A stretch of 64,000 bases of DNA from Moringa oleifera (taxonomy: Eukaryota; Streptophyta; Magnoliopsida; Brassicales; Moringaceae), in contig JAJFZO010000718.1 in the NCBI GenBank assembly GCA_021397835.1, forward strand, positions 620,001 through 684,000. The letters run 5' to 3'. Below, piece after piece: positions 79 to 62,270 of the stretch (the first letter of the stretch is position 1; each line of letters begins with the position of its first letter). A program made the position numbers and the translations under genes. The notes under the pieces were generated by a model. The model was not told the origin of the DNA and did no database searches. It saw only the letters and a list, made by a program, of their open reading frames with translations.

Positions 79-195
79 GTCAAGTGCCACCTAGGGTTCC
101 CCCAAACACTTCAGTGGGATTAGGCTAAGCCATCTGTTAGGGCTCCTTGAAGAGTCCCAATGAAGTGGTTAGGGGAACTCTAGGGGACAGCCGAC
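79..195 (-). ncRNA. MIR395: MIR395 precursor, locus 1, minus strand
   Basis: This is a foldback with the miR395-type 21-mer on the 3' arm of the minus strand (plus coordinates 94-114). It matches the canonical miR395 except that position 20 is C, so the 3' end reads AACCC. The 5' arm is the complement of about 155-190 and pairs along its whole length, including the lower stem that reads gtcccctagag on the minus strand. By family knowledge the miRNA directs cleavage of ATP sulfurylase and SULTR2;1 mRNAs during sulfur starvation. Compared with its paralogs, two bases (tg) are missing at the stem base near position 80. It is transcribed leftward, away from the plus-strand precursor at 1024. Confidence 0.87.
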
Positions 196-1023
196 TCTCT
201 CTTTCCCTTATTCACTGAATTTTTTGATAAGTTGATGCATGCATGGCAAGCCATCTATTTATAAGAGGGCATTCCTTCAATGAGATATATACTAAAGAAA
301 ATGTGACAATGTGACCTTGGCATACATAAGGAAATAGAGGATTATTCTGCACGTGATGATTGAATCTGGTCCTTATTGTGATGATGGAGGATCCAGAGAC
401 GTGACTCCGGTAAGTTGGCCACAAGTGGTCACAAATTCTTCCTGCGACTTTCATTTATGCGGTCCATCCTTAATGTTTATGAGGGAAGAACATTTTTTGA
501 GCACTAGCTTCATATGCTTAAGTCAAGGATTATCTTTCTTTGCTGTAAAACATGTGTTAGTTACTCATCTAACATGGTTTTAGCCATCTTCGAAGTAAGC
601 TACATACTACATGTATGGTTAAATACACCGAGAGGTTGGCATTATTTGAACTACAGCAGTTTATTAAGGCAGCATGCAGTACCAACAATAATTTGACACA
701 TGGGTTTATATAGAAGATTCTGGGTTTGCTTGGCCAGCTGAAGATGAAAGGTTGATGGGTATCAATAGTGAAAAAGAGGCGTAGACGGCTTGTGTCCACA
801 GACCACTCACCTCTAATATTCTCTTGCTCTCATGTATCGATACAGCGGTTGCGTCTAAGATCACTGCTCACAGCTTTATCCGCAAAAATCTCTTGTGGTC
901 TCTTAACCGCACAAAGACCCAAAATTCAACCAGATGCACTAAGAGGAGCTCATTATAAATGGTGGGTCGTTTAGTTGCATTCACTTCACCAAGGAATCAA
1001 TACAAGCAAGAGTAAAAATATAT
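196..1023. promoter_or_regulatory. Bidirectional MIR395 promoter, locus 1
   Basis: This 0.83-kb spacer separates two divergent precursors. A minus-strand TATA box (TATAAATA) lies at 256-263, 61 bp from the left hairpin. A plus-strand TATA box (TATAAAT) lies at 954-960, 64 bp from the right hairpin. A G-box CACGTG is at 350-355, immediately followed by ATTGAATCTGGTC at 359-371, which resembles the UPE-box of sulfur-response genes. A GAGAC core, as in the sulfur-responsive element SURE, is at 396-400. The short ORFs here are not conserved between paralogs and I do not call them genes. Confidence 0.7.
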
Positions 1024-1122
1024 GTCAGGTGCCCCCTAGAGTTCCTCTGAGCACTTCATTGGGGACTTTCTCAATACCAGACCTCACTGAAATGTTTGGG
1101 GGAACTCCCGGTGTCATCTGAT
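1024..1122 (+). ncRNA. MIR395: MIR395 precursor, locus 1, plus strand
   Basis: The foldback has a 5' arm at about 1024-1062 and the miR395 21-mer at 1087-1107 on the 3' arm. The 21-mer differs from the canonical form only at position 6 (G to A), which lies inside the target-recognition seed. The lower stem pairs gtcaggtgcccc with the ggtgtcatctgat tail. Because the family's targets pair through this position, this copy may be weaker or have a changed target range. The precursor is otherwise well formed. Confidence 0.85.
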
Positions 1123-2474
1123 ACAAGGCGAGGTGAGGCTAGTGACACATATTGCCAGGACTATGTGGTTCTATCCCCTTTATTGCTTCTGACTAGTTAG
1201 GTTTAAGTTTAGTTTTTAGCTAAGTTACTTGATTGCTGCTCATTTGGAACAACATCAAGGACTCGCTGCTTTGAATTTAATATATATTCATCAGCCAAAT
1301 TATACAGTACAAATATAATACATCCCATGTATCCTATACTTCCATCATCCATCTGCTGACAGAAAGTTTTTGCTGATCCAATGCTCTTCTTTATGTCAAG
1401 ATTTGGATATACTTTCCTGCATATATCATGTTCTTGTAAAGGTCAATATTGCAGGTGCATATATTTATAGGCACTGTGGGTTTAGTTTCATTAAAATGCC
1501 AAATCCTAGGTTTTTTCACTCTTAGGTCTTCTTCTTAACCCTAAGCCTTGGTCTTTAGGAGTTGACAGAAAAGGTCAGAGAAACCATTTGGTCTAAGGTT
1601 TTTGTTGCATAACTACACTAATAAAAGGAGTATAGTTTAGTTTATTAAGATTAGAAGATAGCATGAAAGTCTTTGATTAGAAGTGAAAAAGAGTTCCTCA
1701 CAAGAATTTTTCTCCCCCTAAACAAACAAAACATGATTAACAAAAACCTTGCAAAACATTTCTGTGCTTGATCTAAATTTGCTAGTTCTCTTTCTGACAT
1801 TATTGCATATTATTTGCTCTACTTCTTGCAATTATAAGTGAGATTAGTTTTTTGCATTACAAGAGAAAACATATCTTTGCACGATCTCTTTCATGTATTA
1901 CATGTCAGCTTAATTGTGATGTACGGCTTAGATTGTGCAATGCTGAGGACTTGCTTGTTTTGTTTCTTGCTATTTTCTTTCTATAATAAATTCATATTGT
2001 TTATATTTGTATGTCTTTTGGATCTTGGTTATTTAGTCTAGGTAACATATATGTATTGAGCTAAACCTGTGACACAAGTTACTGTGTCAAGACCGTGGGT
2101 TTGAATTGCATGTCCCTTTAATTTTCTTTTGTTAGAAGCGTGTTTTACTATAAATTATTATAACTAATCTTCACAGTTATATTAATTCTGCTGATTTCAC
2201 TAAGATAATCACTGTGATCTTATTCAGATCACTCTATACTAAACAACGGTTTAATTATTACATAGTAAGTGTAATAAATAGAGAAGAAAGCTAGTTTAAG
2301 GTTGGATGGACGTATAGCATGAGCTAGACGTATTATTTCATAACTATAATTACAATTTTTTGTAGTAATATAAATTAAATTTGTAGTTTATTTTAGTACC
2401 AATAAATGCTTTTACTTACCAGTTATCATCTCTTAAGAGTGGTTATATAGTTACTCGATAATTAAAAGAAGACA
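1123..2474. other. Unit A 3' flank, no protein gene seen
   Basis: This stretch follows the plus-strand precursor and aligns by eye with 23681-25011 and with parts of 36803-37690 and 42541-44350. It probably contains the 3' part of the primary transcript and then decayed intergenic DNA. The ORF at 1838-2041 does not stay open in the paralogs. The similarity to copies without the gypsy insertion stops being continuous at about 2475. Confidence 0.5.
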
Positions 2475-2766
2475 AGGTTAGAAACTAGTAAGCAAAGAGA
2501 AGAAACTCGCTCTATAAAAGAAATTTTCATTGATTCTCAACTCTTTGATGATCTCATTTCAATTACAAGGGATGTATTTATAGAAGTTTCACAAGGGTAT
2601 TTACATCATTATCCTTCTAAAATATTTGGCCTTATTACATTTCCAATACAACCTTTAACCTTTCAAGCAATTACTCTAATCCCTCTAGAATAATGAAAGA
2701 AGTTGTCTACACTTTTGGATTTCAATGACTGGGTTGCATCTGAGCTTGGATGTGGATTCCATTCCA
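2475..2766 (-). repeat. LTR of degraded Ty3/gypsy element, unit A
   Basis: About 290 bp that recur at 25012-25290 and 34127-34412, sharing gtaagcaaagagaag near one edge and (except in the 25 kb copy) gtggattccattcca near the other. The copy at 34127 abuts a primer-binding-like site, which identifies the repeat as an LTR. Edges are approximate because no clean terminal inverted bases or target-site duplication could be fixed. Confidence 0.55.
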
Positions 2767-5520: not shown

Positions 5521-5599
5521 ATTTAAATCAGGTATTCTTGTGTTTATTTGATTTCTTTTTATATTAATTATTATTGATTTTAAATGTTAGAGATTTTAT

Positions 5600-8007: not shown

Positions 8008-9018
8008 GTGGTATTAGAACAATGTCGATCATTTATTAAGCATAATTTTTACTAACCTATGATTAATTCAAATCGTGTATCCCTATCAATCTCTAATTAT
8101 GATTTTTGGTCAATTAAAATTACGACCTATTTTTGTGCTCAAAATTTGTGGGAAGTTGTGGAAGGAACTGTCATCTTTAAAGATATTATCACTCTTTCAA
8201 CTACTCCAAAAAAAATATTGGACAAAAATATTCAAAAAATTCTTAAGCGTTATTTTTACTTTAACAAACTATGGCAGATGAGATCTTTCCATGAACCATA
8301 AAAGCAATTACCACTAAAAAAAAAAAGTGTAAGACACATTGTATGACGAGTTCCAAGGAAATAAAAAGGTATATACTATCAAACTCCAATTTCTTAGAAG
8401 ATATTTTGAAAATATTAAAATAAAGGATAATGAGATTGCAAGAGACTATTATTTAAGATTAAAGAAATAATTAATCAGATGAGAGCCTATGGAGAAAATA
8501 TTTCTGATAGAAGAATAGTGGAAAGAATTGATTTGCTACATAAAAAAAATGATGCATTGATTTTTGATATTGAAGAGTTTAAAGATATAAAAAGCCTCTT
8601 TGGAGAGTACCATTTAGTCTAAAATAAAAGTGTAGCCTTAAAAAGTAAAGAAAATTAGGAGAAACTCAAATGAGAATTCCAAAAATAAGCAAAATCTAAA
8701 AAGATAAGTTGAAAATAAAAATAATTTTCCTCATGTGAGATTTGTTTCAAAAAAAAAAAGAAAAAAAAGAAAACCACTCGAGAAAGATTATTAGTTCCTA
8801 GGAAAGCCGCAATGCTAAAATTGTAAGAAATTTGGGTACTTAATGAGAGATTATAGACTAAAAGAAGTATTCAAGCTAGTTTTACTAACGAAAGGGAGGA
8901 AGAGAATTTTCTTTTTCATGCATGTCAGAAAACTACTAAAGAGGAAAGTGATGTATGTTATTTAAACAGTGTCTACAGTAATCTTACGATAAAAGATGAG
9001 AGTATTTTTGGCAATCTT
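8008..9018 (+). mobile_element. Copia gag remnant, truncated at 9018
   Basis: After the primer-binding-like site, the reading frame from 8059 (MINSNRVSLSISNYDFWSIK) is typical of the start of copia Gag. Further Gag-like fragments lie at 8560-8700 (FDIEEFKDI) and near 8800, where a zinc-knuckle region would be expected. The element ends abruptly at about 9018 within sequence that continues as copia at 31943, where unit B DNA takes over. Confidence 0.7.
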
Positions 9019-10336
9019 AATATGTTTAATGTTATGATTTTAATGTAATCTCAAATAAATTTAAAATAACTTCATCTATATTTACAATTAAAATCAAATT
9101 ATAATAGCACAATATAATTTTTTGTTATAATTCAAATGCAATGTACACAGATCTTTTTTTTTTCATGTATTTGTTTGCTAAACCGCAAAAATGTACCAAC
9201 TTTAGGTTAATAAAACAAAGTCCATATTGCAGTATATGCTTTGCCCAGAAATTTTTCTAGTCTTGCTTTGTTTTCTCCCTTATTGACAGAATGGTTAGTC
9301 AACCCAAAATTCAAACAGTAATTGGGTAACAATCAACCAACTAAATGCATCAAGATTATAGTTGTGACTAATAAGACTACACCCACTTCAAAATTCGTTC
9401 TCTTGGAATCTTATTTAGTATTAATTGATCAAATACAATCCATTCATCAAGAACATAGTAACACTCATGCTATCAGTAAATGATAAATTCAAATTTGTCT
9501 TTATGATCTAATTACTAAACGGATAAATAAGATAAACACAAACATAAACATAGATAAAATGGATAAGATTTTTACGCGATTCAGTTAAATAACTGACATT
9601 CATAAGGTCACGCTCAAATTATAATCAAGCCATCAAGTAATGAAAGTTCTTACAAGTACCAATTGTTTTTTACACAGCTTCCTCTTCAACTGTCATAATT
9701 AGTATTGTAACATTTATTGAAACAATATTAAGTGAAATCCACTCAACTTATATGATCGTACTTTACTTGAACTCCCATCAATGTGCAGCTGTGTTTTTCT
9801 CCCAATAATAGTTCATTATTCTTCCAAGGAATTCTTAGAATTTTAACATTTTTTGAATCTCCAAATAAAGAATTGGGTTAACTTTTGGAAAATCTCTATC
9901 AATATTAAAGCCCGTTTAAGATTTAATAAAAGTTTACGTAAAGCTTAATAAATTAAATTTGTTAGCAAATCATGGGACATATATTTTTAAAACGAGTGGA
10001 TCCAACTCAGCTTATTAATTTAAAAGACCCATCAAAAATGGGTTGGGCAAAACTTGGATCATAAATTTCAAGTTGACCTGGCTCAGCTTGACTTATTGTC
10101 GAGCCTAAGTTAGTAGCACTTACTTTCAAAGATATATGCTCCATTACACCTTAAATTAGATTTTCTTACCTAAACTTTGCAAGAATTGGTATTGGATAGT
10201 CAATTCTTAGTGCATTTCTCAATTTACCAGTACGATAATTACCTCTTTTAAGCATATTCATCAGCTTGCAATAGGTTTTCTCATTAGTTACCAATGAAGT
10301 CAAATGCAATACTAATTCCTTTAAGTTTGAGATCAG

Positions 10337-11971: not shown

Positions 11972-12089
11972 TGTCAAGTGCCAGCCAGGGCTCCCCCAAA
12001 CATTTCAGTGCTGCAGGGCAAAGCCCTCTGTTAAGGCTTCTGAATGAGCAGCAATAAAGTGGTTAAGGGAACTCTAGAGGACAGCTGAC
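11972..12089 (-). ncRNA. MIR395: MIR395 precursor, locus 2, minus strand
   Basis: The minus-strand 21-mer lies at 11988-12008 on the 3' arm. It differs from canonical miR395 at position 6 (A), 18 (G) and 20 (C), ending GAGCCC. The 5' arm is the complement of about 12052-12086. Loop bases include a small internal stem (agggcaaagccct). It forms a divergent pair with the precursor at 12555 and is duplicated at 61560. Confidence 0.8.
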
Positions 12090-12554
12090 TCCCTCTTTAG
12101 CTCACTTTGTTTAATTTCTAGATAGGATATGCCTGCAACTTATAACGGAGATGTTCTATATATGTCTTGGCACTCAAGCATAATGGTGGCCTCAGCAGAT
12201 AGAAATATTGGAGGATTGAATCTGGACTTGATAACGGTACAACATGGCATGTGGCCATAGGTGGCCTTAGATTCTGAGTGTGGCTTTCGATTCTCTGTGG
12301 TCCAACGATGAGCTCACAGCTTTATCGTCCACAAAAAACATCTCTAATATTCTCTACTGCTCATGCATCTATCTTGCAGCTGCGTCTAAGTTCACTGCTC
12401 ACTGTTTTATTGCCCCAGAATATCTCTTGTTCGCACGAGAAGAAAGTAACAAAATACCAATATAAAGCCAAATAACCTCATTATAAATAGCAGGCTTCAT
12501 TTCCATGCATTGCCACATGAATCAACCAAGAAAAGCAGTACTAAGAACATATTT
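12090..12554. promoter_or_regulatory. Bidirectional MIR395 promoter, locus 2
   Basis: The spacer is compact at 0.47 kb. It contains ATTGAATCTGGAC at 12215-12227, the closest match in the window (with 61803) to the UPE-box core ATTGAACCTGGAC. The plus-strand TATA box TATAAATAG is at 12482-12490, 65 bp before the hairpin. On the minus side only a weak TATAAG is seen at 12139-12144. Compared with the 61.7 kb copy, about 20 bp are missing just after 12240. Confidence 0.65.
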
Positions 12555-12663
12555 GTCAGGTGTCCCCTAGAGTTCCCCTGAGCACTTCACCGGGCACTCT
12601 CGCAGTACCAAAGTACAATTAGGCCCACTGAAGTGTTTGGGGGAACTCCTGGTGTCATCTGAT
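12555..12663 (+). ncRNA. MIR395: MIR395 precursor, locus 2, plus strand
   Basis: The canonical miR395 21-mer lies at 12628-12648 on the 3' arm. The 5' arm (gtcaggtgtcccctagag, then ttcccctgagcacttcac) pairs with it through the mature region and the lower stem. The terminal loop is about 30 bases. By family knowledge it targets sulfate-assimilation mRNAs. Confidence 0.94.
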
Positions 12664-14916: not shown

Positions 14917-14961
<45 letters not shown>

Positions 14962-15366: not shown

Positions 15367-15469
15367 ATCTGATGTCCCCTAGAGTTCTCCTGAGCACTTC
15401 ACTGCAGAATTTTTTTTTTTTTTTAAAGCTCCACTGAAGTGTTTGGGGGAACTCCTGGTGTCATCTGAT
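15367..15469 (+). ncRNA. MIR395: MIR395 precursor, locus 3, unpaired plus strand
   Basis: The canonical miR395 21-mer lies at 15434-15454. The 5' arm (gatgtcccctagagttctcc, then tgagcacttcactg) pairs well. The loop contains a run of 15 T at 15410-15424, not seen in the other precursors. This is the only locus without a minus-strand partner. The TATA box and upstream block are kept, so transcription is plausible, but the sulfur-type element is missing. Confidence 0.9.
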
Positions 15470-17592: not shown

Positions 17593-18004
17593 ATGAAGAA
17601 CGTTCCAAGCTGGTTCTTTCTTTATTGCTTTCCCAATATGCTTGGTTTCTGTATCAGCAACTCGACCACAGATTTTTCTTTCGACGAGCCACGTTACTGT
17701 CTTCAACAATTTGCCTCAGAACTCGGAGCCATTGAACATCAACTGTGACCCTGATCTCTCCAAACGTGGATTTGACCCTCTTCCAGCAGGCAATTGGCTC
17801 ATATTTGCGGCCTACAGTGATCAAACTGCTTATTATTGCTTGGTTCAATGGGGAAAAAAGTTTGGCTGTTGGCCGGCGTATGTGTTCAAATTTGATAAAT
17901 ACCACAACATCGTGGCTTGGAAAGTGACAACAGATGGGTTTTATAGGAGCTTCGATCAGACTACTTGGAACAAGATGCATAATTGGGGTTATCAACACTG
18001 CTAA
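17593..18004 (+). pseudogene. S1-type self-incompatibility protein homolog, frameshifted
   Basis: The frame ending at 18004 encodes a plant self-incompatibility S1 (S-protein homolog, SPH) domain. HVTVFNNLP opens the fold, followed by CLVQWGKKFGCWPAYVF. Four cysteines, as in the family, stand at residues 35, 66, 76 and 120 counted from codon 17642. Family members are small secreted proteins, usually intronless. A TATATAA box is at 17534-17540 and the first ATG at 17593 starts a plausible signal peptide (MKNVPSWFFL), but in a different frame: it stops after about 51 codons. The SPH frame has no ATG of its own before the domain and a TGA at 17594. A one-base shift within about 17596-17640 would explain this. 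It is therefore a pseudogene, or the shift is a sequence error. A polyadenylation-like AATAAA is at 18097-18102. Confidence 0.75.
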
Positions 18005-18755: not shown

Positions 18756-19521
18756 AGTATGCATACCTGAAATGTTGTTCGATCCTTCTGTATGGAGTTC
18801 ATGCAGACTTGCTGGTTGGTGCAATTTAATGTCTGTAAGACTTATATCGATGTGTAGAACAGATGATCCTTCACACCCATCACACGAAAAGAAAAAAAGA
18901 CATCAATTTTATATTGTGTGTTTTCTATATGATAAAGTTGTTGGCATGACATTAAAAACTAATGCCCATCAAATCTGATCTGATGAATGACATTATCGTG
19001 CATGTCAATGTGAGTGTACTCACAGTAAGACCCATTTTGTGGATTGAATTTTCAAATCACCTAACTTGTACAATGACTCATTAAGACACTTCACTCTCGT
19101 ACCACATATTTTTCTGAATTTTTCTTCAAGAAATTAATAGAGGAGTTCTTTCTGTACACGAAAGGTATCTGAAATTGATATTTAACCAAGGTCATATGAA
19201 CCACTGGTATACACTTTCTCTCCAATCTCTATCTTGTCTGTGTTGCTTACAGTGATGTCGACGGAAGTGACATCATTTCTAAAAGGCCCTTTCACCCACG
19301 AGAAAAACAAGTTCCCATGAACATCACGAGGGGTCTCATGTTGACCAGATGCCAATATTTTGTTTGGTTTTGTAATTTCTCACTGGCTCTTGCATTGCCA
19401 CATCATATGAAGCACTGAAGAAGGTTCTTCCTGGATACTCCTCTTTATATGCAGCCCCCCTGCCTGCCTTCTTCCACGCCAACTTGCATGTCCAACTCAA
19501 CTCTTCCCCTTATTATTCACC

Positions 19522-22191
19522 ATGGCCTCTCTTCATCGCCCTTCTCTCAAACACAGCGTCTGTGTCGACCCTCAAGGAATCAGGGGCTCTTCATCGTTGG
19601 AGGTGGAAGCAGCTGACAGAATCAGGAGGTATGAAGGAGAAGGACGAGGTGGTGGTGATCATGGAGTTTTCTTAACATGGAACGATTTGTGGGTGACAGT
19701 CAAAAATGGGAAAAAAGGGAATAGGCCAATCCTTCATGGTCTTACAGGTTATGCTCGGCCTGGAGAGCTCTTGGCTATAATGGGTCCTTCTGGTTGTGGC
19801 AAGTCCACTCTTCTTGATGCCCTAGCAGGTATACACATGTAATTTGAAACATTTAACCCTGAAATTAATGTGACTCATTAATTCATCTTTTTACAGTGTT
19901 CTTGTTAGTCTAAATTACTTCTAATAGTTGCCCTCTTGATATTGTGATCTCAGGCATATGTCTCACAAGACGATGCCTTGATCACCACTTTAACAGTTGG
20001 AGAAGCCATACACTACTCAGCCCAGCTTCAATTGCCAGACACAATGTCAATGGCAGAGAAGAAAGAAAGAGCAGAAATGACAATAAGGGAAATGGGACTG
20101 CAAGATGCCATGTGCACGAGAATAGGAGGGTGGGGTGTTAAAGGACTTAGTGGTGGCCAAAAAAGGAGAGTTAGCATTTCCATGGAGATGCTAACACACC
20201 CAAAGCTTCTTTTTCTGGATGAACCAACCAGTGGACTTGATAGTGCAGCATCATATTATGTCATGAGTAAAATTGCAGCACTCAATCAAAGAGATGGAAT
20301 TCGAAGAACTATCGTTGCATCTATTCATCAGCCTAGCAGTGAAGTCTTCCAGCTGTTCAACAATCTTTGTCTTCTGTCTTCTGGTAGAACTGTGTACTTT
20401 GGTCTTGCTTCTTCAGCAAATGAGGTGAACATTTGCAAACTTTCCCTTCAACCCCCTACCCTTTACAGTATTCAATTTGAGAAACTAATGGCTGTTTGAG
20501 AATTCATTGTAGTTTTTCTCTTCGAATGGATTCCCTTGCGCAACTCTTCAGAATCCATCTGATCACTTTCTGAAAACCATAAACAAAGATTTTGAAAAGG
20601 TATGTATATGGTATTTTCTTAGAAATTCTTAATTCTTGTAGCATATTTCCTCACATTCTGTAATAAATTCTCCATTAGTAAGCTAGATGAGGACTTGAGC
20701 ATTATTTCCTAAACAGAAAAGATCTAAAGAAATCTAATGAGCCAGATTTCTCGTCTTCTTTCCAGGATATTGAACAAGGTTTAGCTGATTCTATATCTGC
20801 AGAGGAAGCAATTAATATTCTTAAAAATTCATATAAATCATCAGATTATTACCAACAAGTTCAAAGAGAAGTCTCTGAAATATGCAAACAGGTGAGTGTA
20901 TTACTTATGCATAATGCATACACTTAACTTGTAACTTCAGCAGCCTTTTCCGTAGCAAATACTCTAGAAAGCCATTGACGACTAGTATATTCTTATGGGT
21001 GGTTTCAGGATTGTGGAATGCTGGAAAAGGGAAGAAGCCATGCTGGCTTCCTCACTCAGTGTCATGTCCTCACTAGAAGATCTTTTGTGAACATGTATCG
21101 CGATCCAGGCTACTATTGGTTACGTGTAGCCATCTATGTTGCACTCTCTATAGGCCTAGCTACATTATTTTGTCATATTGGTAGTAGTGGTAGTTCAATT
21201 CAGGTAAAAGTAATATGGTATTTTGTAAATGCATGTAGAATACTTTAGTAGAAACAATGCCCGTAGTTTCATTTTGGTAAACATAAAGCCTGACATGAAA
21301 ACGTAAATCTCAAAATGTTTCAGGCAAGAGCATCACTGCTTGTGTATGTAGCTTCATTCCTGACTTTCATGGCCATCAGTGGATTCCCTTCTTTTGTGGA
21401 GGACATGAAGGTACATTTTGAATGTTGTCTAGTCACTTAAAAGTTGTTCAATTGAGGGACTTTTAATCGTGCTTGAACCTTGAAATTCAACGTGTCACGA
21501 ATAGGTATTTCAACGAGAAAGATTGAACGGGCACTATGGAGTTACAGCCTTCGTTATCGGAAACACATTCTCTTCATTTCCATACTTACTGATAATCTCA
21601 CTGATTGCTGGAGCAATAACTTACTTCCCTCCTGGACTACACAAAGGATATGAACAATTCTTGTACTACATATGCGTAATATTTGCTTGCATGATGTTGG
21701 TGGAGAGCCTAATGATGATCGTTGCAAGTCTTGTGCCCAACTTTCTAATGGGCATAATAATTGGAGCAGGCATACAAGGGCTAATGATTTTAGGTGGGGG
21801 ATTCTTTCGATTGCCAAATGATCTCCCCAAACCATTTTGGAAGTACCCATTACACTACATTGCTTTACATCGATATGCCTATCAAGGATTGTTCAAGAAT
21901 GAGTTTGAAGGTGCTATGTTTCCTAATAATCAGGTCGGAGGGCCACCCACCACTAGAGGTGAAGAAATTTTGAGAATGACATGGGAGGTTGAAATGGCTT
22001 ACTCTAAGTGGGTTGATCTAGCAATCTTGCTAGTGATGGTGGTTCTGTATCGAGCTATGTTCTTGGCCATCATCAAGACAACTGAGAAGATGAAGCGTAT
22101 TATGGTAGCAAACATGAAAGTACAGTCAAAACAAACAACACAAGTGATGGTAAATCCTTCTACTACACCTTTACATGGAGAAAGCACTTAA
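19522..22191 (+). pseudogene. ABCG half-transporter gene lacking one exon
   Basis: This is an ABCG-subfamily (WBC type) half-transporter gene. Exons I can define by GT-AG borders and conserved protein are 19522-19828, 19954-20424, 20513-20599, 20766-20891, 21009-21203, 21324-21410 and 21505-22191. The nucleotide-binding domain shows Walker A GPSGCGKST (residues 88-96), the Q-loop QDD, signature LSGGQ, Walker B LLFLDEP and the H-loop SIHQPSSE. The last three exons encode the transmembrane domain. The family normally has about 27 residues between DALAG and AYVSQDD, with a GxILINGRK-like segment; none of it is present in the 125-bp gap 19829-19953. Exon 1 ends in phase 1 and the next recognisable exon starts in phase 0, so joining them directly breaks the frame. 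An orphan acceptor-like ctttttacag ends at 19896, suggesting that an exon was deleted right after it. All other exons are open, so the loss looks recent. Relatives of this clade export lipids or cuticle and suberin precursors; the substrate here is unknown. Confidence 0.85.
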
Positions 22192-22641: not shown

Positions 22642-22760
22642 GTGTCAAGTGCCACCCAGGGTTCCCCCAAACACTTCAGTGGGATGAGGCTAAGCCCTCT
22701 GCTAGGGCTTCTTGAAGAGTCCCAATGAAGTGGTTAGGGGAAGTCTAGGGGACAGCTGAC
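22642..22760 (-). ncRNA. MIR395: MIR395 precursor, locus 4, minus strand
   Basis: The minus-strand 21-mer lies at 22659-22679 and is canonical except for C at position 20, the same sequence as loci 1 and 5. The star arm contains one extra mismatch (plus-strand ggggaagtc at 22737-22745 where the paralogs have ggggaactc), which opens the stem opposite the 3' end of the miRNA. It is the left partner of the pair with 23582. Confidence 0.86.
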
Positions 22761-23581
22761 TCTCTCTTTCACTTATTCTCTGAATTTCTTGATAAGTTAA
22801 TGCATGCATAGCAAGCCATATCTTTATAAGAGGGCATTCCTTCAATGAGATATATGCTAAAGAAACTGTGACGTTGGCGTACATAAGGAAATGGAGGATT
22901 GATCTACACGTGATGATTGAATCTGGTCCTTATTGTGAGAATGGAGGATCCAGAGACGCGACTCTGGTAAGTTGGTCACAAGTGGTCACAAATTCAACCT
23001 GCGATTTTCATGTGGTCCATCCTTAAAGTTTATGAGGGAAGAAGAACATTTCTCCAGCACTAGCTCCATATGGCTAAGTCAAGGATTATCTTTCTCTGCT
23101 GCAAAACATGTGTCAGTTACTTATCTAACATGGTTTTAGCCATTTTTGGAGTAAGCTACAAACTACATGTAGGGTTAAATACATCAAAAGGATGGTATTA
23201 TTTTAACTACAACAGTTTAAGGCAGCATGCAGTAGCAGCAATAATTTGACACATGGGTTTATATGGCAGATTCTGCTTAGGGTTTGCTTGGCCAGCTGAA
23301 AGTGAATGGTTGATGGGTATCAATAGTGAAAAAGAGGCGTAGACGGCTTGTGTCCACAGGCCACTCACCTCTAATATTCTCTTGCTCTCATGCATCTATC
23401 TAGCAGTTGCGTCTAAGTTCACTGCTCACAGCTTTATCCCAAAAAATCTCTTGTGGTCTCTTAACCGCACAAAGACCCAAAATTCAACCAGGTGCACCAA
23501 GAGGAGCTCATTATAAATGGTGGGTCGTTTGGTTGCATTCACCTCACCAAGCAATCAATACAAGCAGGAGTAAAAATATAT
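22761..23581. promoter_or_regulatory. Bidirectional MIR395 promoter, locus 4
   Basis: The minus TATA (TATAAAGA) is at 22821-22828 and the plus TATA (TATAAAT) at 23512-23518. The G-box CACGTG at 22907-22912 is followed by ATTGAATCTGGTC at 22916-22928 and GAGAC at 22953-22957. Order and spacing are the same as in loci 1 and 5. Confidence 0.7.
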
Positions 23582-23680
23582 GTCAGGTGCCCCCTAGAGT
23601 TGCTCTGAGCACTTCACTGGGGACTTTCTCGAGACCAGACCTCACTGAATTGTTTGGGGGAACTCCCGGTGTCATCTGAT
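23582..23680 (+). ncRNA. MIR395: MIR395 precursor, locus 4, plus strand, seed variant
   Basis: The 21-mer at 23645-23665 carries T at position 6 instead of G. The 5' arm also has a change (gagttgctctgag instead of gagttcctctgag), which weakens the stem opposite the 3' part of the miRNA. The overall foldback remains. Both changes together suggest relaxed constraint on this copy, or a shifted target range. Confidence 0.78.
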
Positions 23681-35740: not shown

Positions 35741-35760
35741 GATGCTGTCGTGCTAACCAG

Positions 35761-35878
35761 TGTCAAGTGCCACCCAGGGTTCCCCCAAACACTTCAGTGG
35801 GATTAGGCTAAGCCCTCTGTTAGGGCTCCTTGAAGAGTCCCAATGAAGTGGTTAGGGGAACTCTAGGGGACAGCTGAC
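35761..35878 (-). ncRNA. MIR395: MIR395 precursor, locus 5, minus strand
   Basis: The 21-mer lies at 35777-35797 on the minus strand, canonical except for C at position 20. The star arm (complement of about 35840-35875) is fully kept. It is the cleanest of the minus-strand copies, with a continuous lower stem. Confidence 0.9.
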
Positions 35879-36702
35879 TCTCTCTTTCACTTATTCTCTG
35901 AATTTCATGAAAAGCTAATGCATGCATAGCAAGCCATATCTTTATAAGAGGGTATTCCTTCAATGAGATATATGCTAAAGAAAATGTAACGTTGGCGTAC
36001 ATAAGGAAACGGAGGATTGATCTACACGTGATGATTGAATCTGGTCCTTATTGTGAGGATGGAGGATCCAGAGACGTGACTCTGGTATGGTCACAAGTGG
36101 TCACAAATTCAACCCGCGATTTTCATATGTGGTCCATCCTTAAAGTTTATGAGGGAAGAAGAACATTTCTCCAGCACCAGCTCCATATGCTTAAGTCAAG
36201 GACTATCTTTCTTTGCTGCAAAACATGTGTTAGTTACTTATCTAACATGGTTTTAGCCGTCTTTGGAGTAAGCTACATACTACAAGTAGGGTTAAATACA
36301 TCAAGAGGCTGGCATTATTTTAACTACAGCAGCTGAAGGCAGCATGCAGTAGCAACAATAATTTGACACATGGGCTTATATAGCAGATTCTGCTTAGGGT
36401 TCGCTTGGCCAGCTGAAAGTGAATGGTTGATGGGTATCAAAAGTGAAAAAGAGGCGTAGACGGCTTGTGCCCACAGTCCACTCACCTCTAATATTCTTGC
36501 TCTCATGCATCTATCTAGCAGTTGCGTCTAAGTTCACTGCTCACGGCTTTATCCCAAAAAATCTGTTGTGGTCTATTAACCGCACAAAGACCCAAAATTC
36601 AACCAGGTGCACCAAGAGGAGCTCATTATAAATGGTGGGTATTTTGGTTGCATTCACTTCACCAAGCAATCAATACACGCAGGAGTAAGAATTAATATAC
36701 AT
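35879..36702. promoter_or_regulatory. Bidirectional MIR395 promoter, locus 5
   Basis: The minus TATA (TATAAAGA) is at 35939-35946 and the plus TATA (TATAAAT) at 36627-36633. CACGTG is at 36025-36030, ATTGAATCTGGTC at 36034-36046 and GAGAC at 36071-36075. The ORF at 35992-36336 spans these elements and is not conserved as a protein. Confidence 0.7.
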
Positions 36703-36802
36703 GTCAGGTGCCCCCTAGAGTTCCTCTGAGCACTTCATTGGGGACTTTCTCAAGATCAAACCCTACTGAAGTGTTTGGGGGAACTCCCGGTGTCATTTGA
36801 TA
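36703..36802 (+). ncRNA. MIR395: MIR395 precursor, locus 5, plus strand
   Basis: The canonical miR395 21-mer lies at 36766-36786 on the 3' arm. The 5' arm at about 36703-36742 is fully complementary apart from the usual bulges. Unlike its close relatives in loci 1 and 4, it keeps G at position 6, so it is probably the functional plus-strand copy of the A family. Confidence 0.94.
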
Positions 36803-41575: not shown

Positions 41576-41693
41576 AGTGCCAACTGCCACAGTAGATTCC
41601 CCCAAACACTTCAGTAGGTTGGCTAAGTCCACTGTTAAGGTCTCTTGAAGAGACCCAACGAAGGGATTAGGGGAACTGCAGGGGACAGCTGAC
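41576..41693 (-). ncRNA. MIR395: MIR395 precursor, locus 6, minus strand, degenerate
   Basis: The minus-strand 21-mer at 41594-41614 keeps positions 1-18 of miR395 but ends TCT. The star arm has drifted: plus-strand gaagggattaggggaactgc at 41660-41679 where the paralogs have gaagtggttaggggaactct. A foldback still forms but with more mismatches. It may be a decaying copy. Confidence 0.6.
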
Positions 41694-42430
41694 TCTCTCT
41701 TTCACTAATTCGGTGAATTTCTTGATAAGTTAGGCACAGCAAGCCATACATATAAGAGATCTTCCTTCCAATTGACACTTAAAAGAGAAATAATGGTGAC
41801 CTGAGGCCTACCATTAAAGAAATGGAGGACTGAATCTACACGTGAGGATTGAATCTGGTCCTTATCATGGAAGAGATGAAGGATCGAGAGCGACTGCGGT
41901 AAGTTGGCCACCAGTCTCCAATTCTACCAGTGATTTTCATTTCTGTGGTCCGTCCTACCTTTACATGGAAGAAAATTTTTTTGTGTAAACATGGGTTAAT
42001 TGCAGACATATAGAGGCTAGCATATTTGAAGTAAAGAGTACCTAGGCGCTGCAGAGATAAACTGGCACAGATTACGATCAACATGCAGTGGCAATTATAA
42101 TTCAGACACATGGATTTATACAGGAGATTCTGCTTAGCGTTTGCTTGGCTAGCTGAAAATGAAAGGTTGATGGGTATCAAAAGTGAAAAAGAGTCATAGA
42201 AGGGCTTGTGTCCACAGGCCTCTCACCTCTAATATTCTCTGGCTCTCATGCACCTATCTTGCAGTTGCGTCTAAGTTCACTCTCACTGCTTTATCCCCAG
42301 AACTCTTGGTCTCAACAACACAAAGAACCCATATTTAACCATATGCACCAAGAGAAGCTCATTATAAATAGAGGGCTGAGTTGCCTTTACCTCACAATCA
42401 ACCAAGACAAGCAGGAGTAAGAATATATAT
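41694..42430. promoter_or_regulatory. Bidirectional MIR395 promoter, locus 6
   Basis: CACGTG is at 41839-41844 and ATTGAATCTGGTC at 41848-41860, with a second partial copy (ctgaatctacacg) just before. The plus TATA TATAAATAG is at 42363-42371. On the minus side only a weak TATATGTA remains near 41747-41754, matching the decay of the minus hairpin. Confidence 0.65.
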
Positions 42431-42540
42431 GTTAGGTGTCCCCTAGAGTTCCTCTGAGCACTTCATTGCGGACTTTCTCCAGATGAAAGAGCTTTCAACC
42501 CACTGAAGTGTTTGGGGGAACTCCTGGTGTCATTTGATAC
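42431..42540 (+). ncRNA. MIR395: MIR395 precursor, locus 6, plus strand
   Basis: The canonical miR395 21-mer lies at 42503-42523. The 5' arm at about 42431-42468 (gttaggtgtcccctagag, then ttcctctgagcacttc) pairs well. The loop is slightly longer than in the A family. Confidence 0.94.
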
Positions 42541-48830: not shown

Positions 48831-50048
48831 TTACATGGTGTCCACCAATAGTCCATACCCAAAAGGCCTTTGGTCGTAGCAATCAAGGTTGTCGCCGTAT
48901 TCAACCCCAAGCATATCACAGTACCTCTTGAAGAACCCAATACGATTCGCAACCCTGTTATCCGGACCTCGGCCACATTCAAGACCACCATTGATGATGT
49001 TTGTGGTCACTCCGAACCCCGGAAGCCGCCCGGCTGACACATCTGCAAGAGTCGGTCGCCACCTTCCGATGATTACATCGTGACACGATGGTTTTGGAAG
49101 TTGTTCGGTCATCCAAAACCAGATAGCTGACTTGAAGGAAATGACTGCGTCCCTTGCAACCAGATCTGGGTCGTTCAATAGGTCCAAACTTAGCGCTTCT
49201 CCACACTGTCCATAGTTGTAGTTCCTGAACAGTATCCAGTTCATATTAACAACCAGTGTTACAATCTTTCCAAAAGAAGAAGAAAGAAAACAAGATCAAA
49301 TGTAAGAGTTAGCATGATCTGGACTTGGTGCTCACCAAGAAAGTTGAATAGGACCCCTACCGAAGTATTTCTGACCAGGAGCACATGGCCATGTGGGGTT
49401 TGGTTGGCAGTAATCAAAACCAGGGTTAATCTCCCTGAGGAAGCAATATCCCCAAGCAAATGGACCATCAGGTGCAGTTGGCCATCCACCTACACAGACA
49501 ACACCAAGTTACCAATATGATTGATCATAAAAGTGGGGAAATAGTTGTATTACTGCGATAATAATGAGTGGTAAAAGCCATATTGGTTCGTTCATTGTAC
49601 CAGTAGTTTCATGAGAAGTTTGAGCAAAGAAAGCAGCTATCTCTCTTTTACGTGTGGCATTATCGCCTGTGGTGGCAAATCCAGGGAAGGAATTAGCAGC
49701 TTCAATGAAAGCATCGTAAGTGTAGAAGCCCCTGGCAGGACAAGCAACATTATTTCTATGCTTAAGCATCTCTTCAAACATTGATCGTGATATGAGACTG
49801 CCAACCTCACCTTCACCACCGCCACCACCACCTCCACCTCCACCTCCACCTCCACCTCCACCACTTTCACATTGGCTCTGGCAACCCTCTCCGCAGTAAG
49901 GATCGGTTGTTCCACACCAACCCCATCTGCTGCAACATAGGCCTCCTGGGCACAAGGCGCCTCCAGCTTGCGACCCACATTGCTCAGCTGAGCAACCCAG
50001 GAAAAACAACAACAAAAAAGAAAAAACTGACACTGCCCAACACCTCAT
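48831..50048 (-). CDS. Class I endochitinase (GH19) with chitin-binding domain
   Basis: Three exons on the minus strand: 49601-50048, 49336-49489 and 48831-49224, with GT-AG borders in frame, giving 331 residues, close to the usual class I length. A signal peptide (residues 1-21) is followed by a hevein-type chitin-binding domain (22-60, eight Cys). A hinge of 16 glycines (63-78) leads into the GH19 catalytic domain. The catalytic glutamates are Glu147 in HETTGG and Glu169 in CFLREIN, 22 residues apart as in the family; SCHDVI and [11 protein letters not shown] are also present. The protein ends in GLLVDTM, the vacuolar-sorting tail known from tobacco class I chitinase. By family knowledge it cleaves fungal cell-wall chitin in defence. 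The gene looks intact and stands alone between MIR395 loci 6 and 7. A longer read-through of exon 1 or exon 3 is unlikely, because the conserved residues match only across the splices. Confidence 0.95.
49815..49864 (-). repeat. GGN-codon minisatellite encoding the chitinase hinge
   Basis: A six-base repeat (GGTGGA on the coding strand, five perfect units) followed by GGT/GGC codons encodes 16 consecutive glycines between the chitin-binding and catalytic domains. Slippage would change hinge length without changing the frame. Confidence 0.9.
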
Positions 50049-50089
50049 TTTCGTAGTCTTAGTGATTTATTCTGAAGCAAGAGATGAGT

Positions 50090-50096: not shown

Positions 50097-50099
50097 CAT

Positions 50100-54300: not shown

Positions 54301-54308
54301 ATCATTTA

Positions 54309-56607: not shown

Positions 56608-56725
56608 GTGTCAAGTGCCACCCAGGGCTCCCCCAAACACTTCAGTGCAGTGGCTCTAGGCCCAAAGTTAAGGCTCCTGGAAGAGGCGCAATGTGTGGTT
56701 AAGGGAACTCCAGAGGACAGCTGAC
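56608..56725 (-). ncRNA. MIR395: MIR395 precursor, locus 7, minus strand
   Basis: The minus-strand 21-mer lies at 56625-56645, canonical at positions 1-17 and then GCCC (G18, C20). The star arm is partly drifted (plus-strand caatgtgtggttaagggaac at 56689-56708), leaving more mismatches around the 5' half of the miRNA. It shares its 3' end with loci 2 and 8. Confidence 0.75.
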
Positions 56726-57516
56726 TCTCTCTTTGGCTTACTCGGCTTTATTTCTTGATAGGGTATTGCATAGCAGGCCTGCTATTTCTAAGAGACATTC
56801 TCTATGTTTTGACACTTTAAGAAAAATTGTGGTTTCAGCTTATATGGAACTGGAGGAAACTACACGAGATGATTGAATCTGGTCTGAATCATGGGAAAGA
56901 TGGAGGGTTGAGAGTGTTGATATTGCAAGTGGCAATAGGTGGTGTCAATTTCTCCATATGTCTTTCATCTCTGTGGTCCATCGATAACCTTTATTTAGAG
57001 GCAGAATTCTTTGAACGCTTGACGTTGGTGTTCGTTTTGGAGGCTTGTTTTAATTAAAGGAGAATATGTTTTAATTAGTTGTCTATAAATAGTTTAGCCA
57101 TCCCATTATGCAGACTGCCAAATACATGCATACGTTTATGTATCTAAATTACAATACCTAATTAAGGGCTACTGATACTGGAAAGAATCAATGATAAGAA
57201 GTTTAGTGTTGCGCATTCTTGTTTATACAGCAGATTCTGCTTTGGATATGCTTGGCTAACTGAAAATGAAAGGTAACATTAATGGAAAAAAGGTAGAAGG
57301 GTTTATGTCCACAGGCCAGTCATCTCTCTAATATTCTCTACCTATCATGCATCTCTCATGCAGTTGTGTCCAGGTTCCCTGCTCAAAGCTTTATCTCCTA
57401 AAAAAATCTCTTATTCTCAACAGAACAAATTATTCAACCAAATGCATTGAGAGGAGCTCACTATAAATAGCTAGCAGATTAGTTGCTGTCACCTCTGGTG
57501 GATGTAAGAATGTATA
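56726..57516. promoter_or_regulatory. Bidirectional MIR395 promoter, locus 7
   Basis: ATTGAATCTGGTC is at 56872-56884 and the plus TATA TATAAATAG at 57462-57470. The minus-side TATA position reads TAGAAATAG at about 56781-56789, one base off TATAAATAG. The G-box position reads CACGAG. Confidence 0.62.
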
Positions 57517-57625
57517 CATCTGATGTCCCCTAGAGTTCTCCTGAGCACTTCACTGGGGACTTTCTCCAGATAACTTAGCGCAACCCTACTGAAGTGTTTG
57601 GGGGAACTCCTGGTGTCATCTGATA
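57517..57625 (+). ncRNA. MIR395: MIR395 precursor, locus 7, plus strand
   Basis: The canonical miR395 21-mer lies at 57589-57609. The 5' arm (catctgatgtcccctagag, then ttctcctgagcacttcac) is the same type as in the unpaired locus 3, suggesting these two are closest relatives. Confidence 0.94.
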
Positions 57626-58593: not shown

Positions 58594-59904
58594 TAATATG
58601 TTTAATGTTATGATTTTAATGTAATCTCAAATAAATTTAAAATAATTTCATCTATATTTACAATTAAAATCAAATTATAATAGCACAATATAATTTTTTG
58701 TTATAATTCAAATGCAATGTACACAGGTCTTTTTTTTTTTTCATGTATTTGTTTGCTAAACCGCAAAAATGTATCAACTTTAGGTTAATAAAACAAAGTC
58801 CATATTGCAGTATATGCTTTGCCCAGAAATTTTTCCAGTCTTGCTTTGTTTTCTCGCTTATTGACAGAATGGTTAGTCAACCCAAAATTCAAACAGTAAT
58901 TGGGTAACAATCAACCAACTAAATGCATCAAGATTATAGTTGTGACTAATAAGACTACACCCACTTCAAAATTCGTTCTCTTGGAATTTTATTTAGTATT
59001 AATTGATCAAATACAATCCATTCATCAACAACATAGTAAAACTTATGCTATCAGTAAATGATAAATTCAAATTTGTCTTTATGATCTAATTACTAAACGG
59101 ATAGATAAGATAAACACAAACATAAACATAGATAAAATGGATAAGATTTTTACGCGATTCAGTTAAATAACTGACATTCATAAGGTCACGCTCAAATTAT
59201 AATCAAGCCATCAAGTAATGAAAGTTCTTACAAGTACCAATTGTTTTTTACACAGCTTCCTCTTCAACTGTCATAATTAGTATTGTAACATTTATTGAAA
59301 CAATATTAAGTGAAATCCACTCAACTTATATGACCGTACTTTACTTGAACTCCCATCAATGTGCCGCTGTGTTTTTCTTCCAATAATAGTTCATTATTCT
59401 TCCAAGGAATTCTTAGAATTTTAACATTTTTTTAATCTCCAAATAAAGAATCGGGTTAACTTTTGGAAAATCTCTATCAATATTAAAGCCCGTTTAAGAT
59501 TTAATAAAAGTTTACGTAAAGCTTAATAAATTAAATTTGTTAGCAAATCATGGGACATATATTTTTAAAACGAGTGGACCCAACTCAGCTCATTAATTTA
59601 AAAGACCCATCAAAAATGGATTGGGCAAAACTTGGATCATAAATTTCAAGTTGACCTGGCTCAGCTTGACTTATTGTCCAGCCTAAGTTCGTAGCACTTA
59701 CTTTCAAAGATATATGCTCCATTACACCTTAAATTAGATTTTCTTACCTAAACTTTGCAAGAATTAGTATTGGATAGTCAATTCTTAGTGCATTTCTCAA
59801 TTTACCAGTACGATAATTACCTCTTTCAAGCATATTCATCAGCTTGCAATAGGTTTTCTCATTAGTTACTAATGAAGTCAGATGCAATACTAATTTCTTT
59901 ATGT

Positions 59905-60185
59905 TTGAGATCAATCACAGTAAAAGCCACATAATTTTTGGCAAGATCATTATCTTTTGTGCTATCATCGAAGTCCTCCTTACTCCCAGTAATATTCAAA
60001 AACTTTCTTTTCTTCTTGATTGTGTTGGCACATTCAACTTGAATATGTCCATCGCCATCACACTCTGGACATAATATCCATTTGACTTTCTTTCCAAACT
60101 CAATTGAGACATTAGGAGCAGTTGATATCAGAAACTTCCTTGGTTCAAAGTTTTCACCTTTATTCTTCTTGTTGACCTTCTTGAG
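59905..60185 (-). pseudogene. Copia-type Gag zinc-knuckle remnant, copy 2
   Basis: The minus strand reads KWILCPECDGDGHIQVECAN, a complete CCHC knuckle, then KKKRKFLN and SKEDFDD-like acidic sequence. Upstream, a TGA replaces an Arg codon that is intact in the copy at 10337-10621. Each copy is therefore broken at a different place. Confidence 0.6.
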
Positions 60186-61559
60186 TTTTCAGTTGAGCCT
60201 TTTAGTCAATAAGGTTAACCTCTCATCAATGCTTTCATCCTAATCTGAAACAGCATCATCTTCTTGCCGGTAAGCTTCCACTTGAAAAACCATTTTCTTC
60301 TTCTTTTTTCTGTTGTAAATTCATCTCAAAAGTTTGTAGAGGTCCCATCAACTCATCAAGCTTCGTGGTTAGCTTGTACATCACGAGTTTCTTGTTACCT
60401 TGTATGCAAACCTTTTTAGTGAAGACTTAAAGATTTTTCTTACAAGTTTTGGTTTAGAATATTTTTCTCCAAATGCGCAAAAAAAAAAATCAATAATTAC
60501 TAAATGTCATATTTATAAAAATAATGTCAGCAAAATTAACAATGTTAATATACTAGCTTTATATGATTTTTAAATTAGTCCGAAAACAATCTAAACTTAT
60601 CATTTCATTTTAAATTTCATATAATTAAAAAAATCAAATTTTTTATTTTATTTTAATAAAATTAAATAAAATCTTAATTGATATATATAAATTCTAAACA
60701 AAAATAAAAAAGTTATTCAAAAGAGCTTCTATTTATTATACCATTAACAAAAACTTAACTTTTACCACTTACCGATAAAATGGAAGTATCCAACATAGTA
60801 TTATAATGCGCCAACATCATTTTGAAATTGAAATTAAATCAAATCGTAGATTTAAAATAACATTGCATAATAATTTGAGATTCAACTAATTATTTTTTAT
60901 TTACAAAATTTTAACTGGTTGTAGATATGGAAATCAATGACTCACTTAAAAAATGAAACTTTAATTATGGATATGGTTTATGTGAGGTCTTTATCGCAAT
61001 CTTTTTGTAAAATATTATTAAGAAGTAAGAGAATTTGGGTGGATTTGGTGTCCACTTCAACAAAGCATATGGTGCACACCTGGTACACATAGGACACACA
61101 TGCATATTTAAGATTACCATAAAAATTATGTTAATGTAAAAGGATTAAATCAAAATTAAAGAGAAAAAAATCAAGGATGGATTGATGCATGAGGCATGGA
61201 TGTGCTTGCATTAAACATATTCAGAGAATTAAAAATTGATTCTCTCTTGTATAAAAGCACTGCTTCAATCAAATTGAAAGATTTCGCATAATCAATTTAA
61301 TTAGGTTAAGTAAAAGCAAGGGCAGTACTACAAGAACATGCCAACCTTATACATATATATGGACACAGCCATTGTGCTTGCAAATAAGGAAGGAAGACCA
61401 TTGCAGTACAACATATCTTGTCCAAGACATTTTAAACAGTATATGAGATCAAATGCAAGAGACTGGGCTCACATGTAAAACACGAAGAAAGAAACCTATC
61501 CGACATTAAGTTTTATAATTAATATAACATTCTTCTCATGCAGCTGTGTTGTTAAACAG

Positions 61560-61677
61560 TGTCAAGTGCCAGCCAGGGCTCCCCAAAACATTTCAGTGCT
61601 GCAGGGCAAAGCCCTCTGTTAAGGCTTCTGAATGAGCAGCAATAAAGTGGTTAAGGGAACTCTAGAGGACAGCTGAC
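61560..61677 (-). ncRNA. MIR395: MIR395 precursor, locus 8, minus strand
   Basis: Duplicate of the 11972 precursor. The 21-mer at 61576-61596 shares A6, G18 and C20 and has one further change, T at position 12, from ccccaaaac where locus 2 has cccccaaac. Position 12 is next to the slicing site, so this copy may have lost activity. The remaining stem is unchanged. Confidence 0.72.
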
Positions 61678-62160
61678 TCCCTCTTTAGCTCACTTTGTTT
61701 AATTTCTAGATAGGATATGCCTGCAACTTATAACGGAGATGTTCTATATATGTCTTGGCACTCAAGCATAATGGTGGCCTCAGCAGATAGAAATATTGGA
61801 GGATTGAATCTGGACTTGATAACGGTACAGAGGGAGGGGTTGTGAGTGACGATGGCATGTGGCCATAGGTGGCCTTAGATTCTAAGTGTGGCTTTCGTCT
61901 CTGTGGTCCAACGATGAGCTCACAGCTTTATCGTCCACAAAAAACATCTCTAATATTCTCTACTGCTCATGCATCTATCTTGCAGCTGCGTCTAAGTTCA
62001 CTGCTCACTGTTTTATTGCCCCAGAATATCTCTTGTTCGTACGAGAAGAAAGTAACAAAATACCAATATAAAGCCAAATAACCTCATTATAAATAGCAGG
62101 CTTCATTTCCATGCATTGCCACATGAATCAACCAAGAAAAGCAGTACTAAGAACATATTT
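61678..62160. promoter_or_regulatory. Bidirectional MIR395 promoter, locus 8
   Basis: ATTGAATCTGGAC is at 61803-61815, the plus TATA TATAAATAG at 62088-62096 and a weak minus TATAAG at 61727-61732. It retains a 20-bp segment after 61827 that locus 2 has lost; locus 7 has similar sequence there, so the longer form is ancestral. Confidence 0.65.
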
Positions 62161-62270
62161 GTCAGGTGTCCCCTAGAGTTCCCCTGAGCACTTCACCGGG
62201 CACTCTCGCAGTACCAAAGTACAATTAGGCCCACTGAAGTGTTTGGGGGAACTCCTGGTGTCATCTGATG
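62161..62270 (+). ncRNA. MIR395: MIR395 precursor, locus 8, plus strand
   Basis: The canonical miR395 21-mer lies at 62234-62254. The hairpin (62161-62270) appears identical by eye to locus 2 (12555-12663), so small-RNA reads cannot separate the two. Confidence 0.94.

Follow-up and report, generated by a model that had tools for sequence, protein, structure and literature searches.

We analysed a stretch of 64,000 nucleotides from the genome of Moringa oleifera, called the window here, which spans positions 620001-684000 of the contig designated C491 and holds 15 foldbacks of the MIR395 microRNA family. Within the window, the canonical miR395 21-mer CTGAAGTGTTTGGGGGAACTC was matched 16 times at up to three mismatches, against 0 matches in 100 shuffles. 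These 16 matches comprised 14 mature sites and two 5' arms of minus-strand hairpins; a scan at up to six mismatches added the minus-strand site at 61576, and the remaining extra matches were mostly 5' arms. All 15 mature sites lie on the 3' arm of their foldback and differ from the canonical sequence at 0-4 positions. Comparison with the Rfam MIR395 family (RF00451) placed 9 of the 15 hairpins above the gathering threshold (56 bits) and the other six at 27-55 bits, all 15 at E<=0.18, and in every case the assigned strand outscored the opposite strand or was the only strand listed. The foldbacks form seven head-to-head pairs, with the minus-strand member on the left and the plus-strand member on the right in 7/7, plus one orphan at 15434. 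We refer to minus- and plus-strand members as M-class and P-class, and pair types (alpha, beta, gamma, delta) were assigned by the minus-strand 3' end and by flanks. In the list below, mature starts are the first coordinates of the mature sites, and z expresses folding relative to 200 dinucleotide shuffles per hairpin.

84..190, minus strand: M-class hairpin, alpha; mature 94-114, CTGAAGTGTTTGGGGGAACCC; z -5.8
1029..1117, plus strand: P-class hairpin, alpha; mature 1087-1107, beginning CTGAAATG, altered at nucleotide 6; z -2.2
11978..12084, minus strand: M-class hairpin, delta; mature 11988-12008, altered at nucleotide 6; z -3.3
12560..12658, plus strand: P-class hairpin, delta; mature 12628-12648, canonical; z -5.6
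15372..15464, plus strand: orphan P-class hairpin (epsilon); mature 15434-15454, canonical; z -4.4
22649..22755, minus strand: M-class hairpin, alpha; mature 22659-22679; z -5.2
23587..23675, plus strand: P-class hairpin, alpha; mature 23645-23665, beginning CTGAATTG, altered at nucleotide 6; weak fold, z -0.4
35767..35873, minus strand: M-class hairpin, alpha; mature 35777-35797; z -6.2
36708..36796, plus strand: P-class hairpin, alpha; mature 36766-36786, canonical; z -3.4
41583..41688, minus strand: M-class hairpin, beta; mature 41594-41614, ending AATCT; lopsided duplex with 6 unpaired mature bases; z -3.1
42436..42533, plus strand: P-class hairpin, beta; mature 42503-42523, canonical; z -3.0
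56615..56720, minus strand: M-class hairpin, gamma; mature 56625-56645, ending AGCCC; weak fold, z +0.3
57523..57619, plus strand: P-class hairpin, gamma; mature 57589-57609, canonical; z -3.6
61566..61672, minus strand: M-class hairpin, delta; mature 61576-61596, four differences from canonical; z -3.1
62166..62264, plus strand: P-class hairpin, delta; mature 62234-62254, canonical; z -5.6

This arrangement bears out an earlier note on the window, which had reported eight plus-strand and seven minus-strand foldbacks at these positions, always minus on the left and plus on the right, as seven divergent pairs and one single. Its count of fifteen precursors stands for the loci (15/15), but about four of them look weak or decaying (plus-strand 1087 and 23645, minus-strand 56625 and 41594). 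Folding on the assigned strands, which the same note had proposed as a check, gave z <= -3.0 for 12/15 window hairpins (27/31 in the whole array described below), while 1087, 23645 and 56625 fell short. At most five mature bases, the limit for a miRNA foldback, were unpaired in 13/15 window hairpins.

A scan of 194 kb (C491:520001-714000) revealed a larger array of which the window makes up the right half; the array reaches ~73.5 kb beyond the window on the left and ~1 kb on the right, all on one 765-kb contig. The array contains 31 hairpins (14 minus, 17 plus) over C491:546510-684991 (~139 kb), grouped into 14 divergent pairs and three orphans. M stands left and P right in 14/14 pairs, and in all 31 hairpins the 3' arm holds a mature sequence resembling CTGAAGTGTTTGGGGGAACTC. 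The order along the array is a0, alpha, alpha, beta, gamma, delta, orphan, alpha, alpha, delta, orphan, alpha, alpha, beta, gamma, delta, orphan. The orphans, at C491:600489, 635434 and 684971, each lie 2.7-2.8 kb to the right of a delta pair; their hairpins fold well (z -4.2 to -4.4), the P-side TATAAATAG was recognised by eye, and remnant M hairpins sought at these three sites gave short weak matches only. AT microsatellites occur at window positions 14920-14961 and 52139-52175, the former ~80-120 bp left of 15042, where homology of the orphan to the P half of a pair stops. A 112-bp unit present 2.1 times at 98% matches lies at 40962-41192, just left of the beta pair. When the genome (279.5 Mb, 669 contigs) was scanned outside the array at up to two mismatches, miR395 was found as a pair on contig C12 (4210009 minus, 4213218 plus) and as a hairpin on contig C583 (6596469). 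A further match at C583:2636222 (CTGAAGGGTTTGGAGGAACTC) was dropped as a hairpin gene: its fold and branching were unlike those of the others, and its opposite strand resembles a target site.

An unrooted tree of 34 hairpins and a decayed hairpin at the C583 locus separated the M and P hairpins of the array as two sequence classes. An ultrafast bootstrap (UFBoot) value of 94 was obtained for the split in which C583 and C12-plus fall with array M, and C12-minus and the decayed C583 hairpin with array P; array M hairpins grouped apart from the outside loci at 97. Class assignment of the C12 hairpins rests on the UFBoot-94 split together with arm and flank letters. Read from the other strand, both C12 and C583 show M on the left and P on the right, head-to-head, as in the array. 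The C583 module can be aligned with array modules end to end, with its P hairpin decayed and four mature bases lost. Because this M/P arrangement recurs at two further loci, it is most simply explained if the heterotypic divergent pair arose before the array did.

We then considered the spacers between paired hairpins. The earlier note had put the spacing at 0.46-0.83 kb; measured from hairpin to hairpin it was 474-828 bp in 14/14 array pairs. Bidirectional promoters are defined by start sites less than 1 kb apart, and the spacing here is that between hairpins. On the P side, all 14 array pairs have a TATA box at 126-146 nt 5' of the mature start; it reads TATAAAT in 13 (127-146 nt) and TATACATA in one (126 nt), the latter form having been added to the pattern after the alignment was inspected. 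On the M side, a TATA-like hexamer lies 138-155 nt 5' of the mature start in 12/14 pairs. At the C12 and C583 pairs, too, inspection by eye showed a TATA-like box on either side. In addition, every array spacer carries, nearer its M side, the sequence ATTGAATCTGG, which equals the core ATTGAA[T/C]CT[A/G]G of the 20-nt UPE motif AG[G/A]T[T/A]CATTGAA[T/C]CT[A/G]GAC[A/G] given for sulfur-starvation genes in PMC9229004. Because about 14 of the 20 positions of the full motif match (alpha copy, by eye), we call the element a UPE core rather than a UPE-box. Its positions in the window, with one example of each TATA-type box, are as follows.

359..369, plus strand: UPE core ATTGAATCTGG, alpha spacer of pair 94/1087
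12215..12225, plus strand: UPE core, delta spacer
22916..22926, plus strand: UPE core, alpha spacer
36034..36044, plus strand: UPE core, alpha spacer
41848..41858, plus strand: UPE core, beta spacer
56872..56882, plus strand: UPE core, gamma spacer
61803..61813, plus strand: UPE core, delta spacer
35938..35950 (approximate), minus strand: M-side TATA-like box TTATAAAGA, ~150 nt 5' of mature start
36627..36633, plus strand: P-side TATA box TATAAAT, 139 nt 5' of mature start

Over 194 kb, ATTGAA[TC]CT[AG]G matched 14 times against 0.63 expected from base composition, once per pair (14/14 spacers), on a single strand throughout, and at 0/3 orphans. Of 897 spacer columns, 138 were invariant across the 14 copies; the longest invariant run was ATTGAATCTGG itself (11 columns), the next longest was 5, and 0/10,000 column shuffles reached 11. 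At C12 and C583, near-matches to the core sit at the same place inside longer similar blocks. Sulfur-responsive element (SURE) cores (GAGAC/GTCTC) were present in 12/14 spacers, yet they occur 166 times in the 194 kb and are little informative. The earlier note had proposed one shared promoter per pair. The single UPE core per spacer supports a shared regulatory spacer, but the spacer looks like two opposed TATA core promoters with a common upstream element and not like one promoter.

Self-comparison of the 194 kb revealed long collinear blocks at 85-97% repeat identity; within the window, a 5.4-kb block is repeated at 97% (9018-14395 versus 58594-64000). The alpha pairs at C491:608333 and 642659 have left flanks, here called the ABCG side, that are 98% identical. 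At the threshold applied, nothing in this flank resembled what lies left of the remaining four alpha pairs, although the pair boxes of the two groups are 87-97% identical. An identical junction is present at C491:608256 and at window position 22582, with diverged sides, and aligning it with the two parent flanks points to ~3 bp of microhomology (GAA). Similarity to the last superunit breaks off near C491:692321. These boundaries suggest three tandem superunits of ~50.6 kb (557615-608255), 34.3 kb (608256-642581) and 49.7 kb (642582-692321), each beginning ~70 nt outside a pair. The middle one is without beta and gamma, and to the right of its alpha pair 608333 about 957 bp are absent at C491:609867 relative to the copy at 557693, as judged from where the aligned blocks end. 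An S1-like gene and an ABCG transporter are present in every superunit (three copies of both in the 194 kb), and a chitinase region occurs in two of the three. The junction and the protein genes in the window are:

22582 (C491:642582): superunit junction between the ABCG-side flank and the alpha box, 77 nt to the left of the M mature site
17597..18004, plus strand: self-incompatibility S1-like open reading frame (PF05938), 3 copies (C491:602.7k, 637.6k, 686.8k)
19411..22191, plus strand: exons of an ABCG-type half-transporter, co-amplified, 3 copies in 194 kb
48831..50066, minus strand: exons of a class I chitinase (PF00182, PF00187) with a long glycine run, 2 copies in 194 kb

A protein search for relatives of the S1-like protein returned none sharing three 5-residue words. 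For the chitinase, identities were 43-67% among at least 120 matches listed. A molybdate-transporter-like protein encoded elsewhere in the genome had a best match at 84%, and its best-scoring named relatives stood at 77-81% (Ricinus, Hevea, Euphorbia, Pterospermum, Theobroma; Prunus campanulata at 80% over 82% of the query); none of these matches was near-identical. The second chitinase copy, at C491:583550-583951 in the first superunit, contains stops and a garbled stretch.

When alpha is set against gamma or delta, the most diverged types, alignments at 70-76% cover 28-55% of the pair box, while of the 1-kb flanks none align on the left and mostly none on the right (<=36% coverage at 65%). 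Homology lying mostly in the pair box fits either old units of pair size or the erosion of larger ones. Because the ~34-51-kb blocks carry protein genes along, the recent physical unit of copying would be the superunit and not the pair. The claim of the earlier note that the pair plus its promoter is the unit of amplification is thus divided. As an inherited unit the pair is supported by the two hairpin classes, the M-left and P-right layout in 14/14, the recurrence at two unlinked loci and the pair-box homology, yet it appears not to have been the physical unit of recent copying, which took the form of superunits. The multiplied dosage of a sulfur-starvation miRNA, also put forward by the note, is a prediction, and several copies are decaying.

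Taken together, we favor, at a probability of roughly two in three, a reading in which the window covers half of a MIR395 mega-array. The inherited module of this array would be a divergent, heterotypic pair with a shared UPE core, switched by an EIN3-like (EIL) factor and later subject to superunit duplication and decay. An M-class hairpin would be transcribed to the left and a P-class hairpin to the right from a spacer of 0.47-0.83 kb. An EIN3-like sulfur-starvation factor of the SLIM1/EIL3 or NtEIL2 type would bind the UPE core and turn on both opposed core promoters, so that sulfur starvation would yield the M and the P precursor at the same time, and both miRNAs would cleave ATP-sulfurylase and sulfate-transporter mRNAs. 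The old pair would have diversified in tandem into alpha, beta, gamma and delta, after which ~34-51-kb superunits, protein genes included, would have duplicated in tandem from 77 nt left of an alpha M mature site, with surplus copies decaying afterwards. We propose this order because the homology is layered, passing from diverged pair types to near-identical long blocks.

Several observations weigh against this reading. Our confidence is lowered because the tree is unrooted and both C12 hairpins branch between the array classes; the split of array P and the decayed C583 hairpin from all others reached only 62. The C12 spacer is longer, at ~3.0 kb, and would exceed the 1-kb bidirectional limit. 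Owing to their common descent, the 14 spacers do not count as independent observations, and clustering of conserved columns is not taken into account by the column shuffle. The core matches at 10/11 positions at C12 and at 9/11 at C583, and the alpha copy, compared by eye, falls short of the full 20-nt UPE consensus. The 12-mer GATTGAATCTGG is found at 65 places in the genome, 13 of them in the array, whereas its reverse, used as a control, gives 24; since the motif by itself is not specific, the argument rests on its context. Four of the 31 array hairpins have z above -3, and the mature sequence is altered at nucleotide 6 or 10 in 3/17 P and 2/14 M copies. Finally, passages of the literature on SLIM1 state that no more than eight Arabidopsis genes induced by sulfate starvation contain the UPE-box, which therefore cannot be called the prime SLIM1 site (PMC4212615), and that with SLIM1 a UPE promoter was active regardless of sulfur status (PMC4292543).

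If one ancestral inverted duplication had been copied passively, with a separate promoter for each hairpin, then orientation would have no role and the geometry would simply be frozen. We consider this unlikely, though less so than the other alternatives. It accommodates the descent of the array pairs from one another, the TATA-like box that most sides have for themselves, the copying of unrelated genes in recent superunits and the persistence of the orphans with their P-side TATAAATAG and sound folds. It sits poorly with the UPE core, one per spacer, as the sole long invariant stretch, with the pair layout and recognisable element kept at C12 and C583, and with the finding that diverged pair types can be aligned within the pair box while their 1-kb flanks mostly cannot.

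With the four pair types pooled, divergence among duplicates of one type was 1.0% (4/420) for M mature and 2.6% for P mature sequences, 2.6% (M) and 2.0% (P) for the star sequences, 4.0% and 7.9% for the loops and 5.4% for the spacer. Nominal flank divergence was 24% and 15%, values mixed with unrelated sequence. Taken by itself, the delta group showed more divergence in M mature (6.3%) and P star (5.8%) sequences than in the spacer (3.5%). Across the six alpha pairs the four arms varied in 3/88 columns against 118/785 spacer columns (Fisher p 0.0016); this difference was significant for the pooled arms only, and not for a single mature sequence against the spacer (M p 0.058; P p 0.34). Changes at nucleotide 6 affect the P copies 1087 and 23645 and the M copies 11988 and 61576. 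Decay is seen in several hairpins, also in the poor folding or pairing of 56625, 23645 and 41594.

These figures bear on the idea that the M hairpins are non-functional remnants and that miR395 comes from the plus hairpins only, which we regard as quite improbable. Of the window hairpins, 2/7 on the minus strand exceed the Rfam gathering threshold against 7/8 on the plus strand; unpaired mature bases number 2-6 in M and mostly 1 in P, and the canonical 3' end occurs in 0/14 M hairpins of the array, all as would suit remnants. Against this, the M mature sequence is invariant over six alpha copies (0/21 columns, compared with 15% of spacer columns; alone p 0.058) and its pooled divergence is below that of the spacer. 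Alpha M hairpins are also among the strongest folds (z -5.2 to -6.5), and three P copies are damaged as well. That the array owes its size to assembly, with haplotypes or repeats laid in tandem, is very improbable: the 97% repeat of 5.4 kb and the long blocks at 85-97% would suit it, but the middle superunit is without beta and gamma, the two instances of one junction type have diverged sides, and a single contig holds all 31 hairpins.

A scan for complementary sites gave at least 221 places against 234 for a control, and only near-perfect sites in relevant genes were used. Five target-like sites were translated and two retained: GAGTTCCTCCAAACTCTTCAT at C2:1011734, in an ATP-sulfurylase-like frame (named by eye), and AGGTTCTCCCAAACACTTCAA at C32:1552143, ~0.4 kb 5' of sulfate-transporter exons (PF00916). 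A site on C18 and a second one on C2 were dropped, being in unrelated frames, and C583:2636222 was doubtful as a target-type site and was not used. Further sites at one mismatch lie on C15 and C564, and others were listed at two mismatches. Long open reading frames were sought in two sulfate-transporter loci and none were found. Pairing penalties were computed with a simple plant scheme. The common P form scored nearly evenly (3.5 at the ATP-sulfurylase site, 3.0 at the transporter site), undamaged M forms (ending AACCC, AATCT or AGCCC) scored 4.5-5.5 and 2.0-3.0, respectively, and damaged forms scored 5.0-9.0. The lean of M isoforms toward the transporter site, with P nearly even, is a lead and not a result. 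One could speculate, doubtful as it is, that the pair is an old two-product nutrient switch, in which one EIL-bound UPE core co-induces two miR395 isoforms with unlike target leanings and thereby fixes the ratio of the response arms, hence pairs were kept and amplified. If this were true, SLIM1-type factors would act directly on MIR395.

MIR395 clusters are already known in plants, including rice and maize (PMC2773440), and the Moringa array resembles these in family (RF00451), in its many copies and in tight clustering. The rice and maize clusters differ in being compact, and those of rice are said to form a single polycistronic unit each; rapid amplification of cDNA ends (RACE) in maize did not detect the miR395a/b cluster (PMC2773440). 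Merchan 2009 reported a strong same-strand clustering bias in Arabidopsis, rice and poplar, with only four opposite-strand clusters of less than 1 kb in the three genomes together (PMC2812943). With 14/14 pairs on opposite strands, the divergent-pair array departs from the same-strand rule in the three surveyed genomes. Among the matches listed in our literature search, no title or opening of an abstract described divergent MIR395 pairs, a weak absence given that subscription literature was mostly outside its scope. Grapevine, compared on copy number only, is another eudicot with many MIR395 copies (16 predicted loci, frequently clustered; PMC2147077). As for regulation, the invariant 11-mer equals the motif core of the NtEIL2- or SLIM1-bound UPE-box promoters (tobacco UP9C; Arabidopsis LSU1-3, APR1 and APR3), but unlike in those promoters the flanking UPE positions are mostly unmatched in the array. 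When SLIM1 is lost, the response of miR395 to starvation is blocked or weakened; the targets of miR395 are ATP sulfurylases and SULTR2;1 (PMC4206189, PMC4212615), and the passages found that treat both the UPE-box and miR395 do not place the box in a MIR395 promoter. The angiosperm SULTR1-SULTR2 head-to-head pair is likewise divergent, in the same nutrient pathway and long kept (PMC12666378), although it consists of protein genes and is no miRNA source.

A UPE core that separates paired MIR395 genes, can be recognised at three loci and is missing at three orphans would provide natural controls within one array. The array also points to a route by which a nutrient microRNA may be multiplied, in which large tandem blocks are copied and the divergent pairs inside them stay intact. 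Such large-block copying would leave intact, damaged and orphan copies adjacent to one another.

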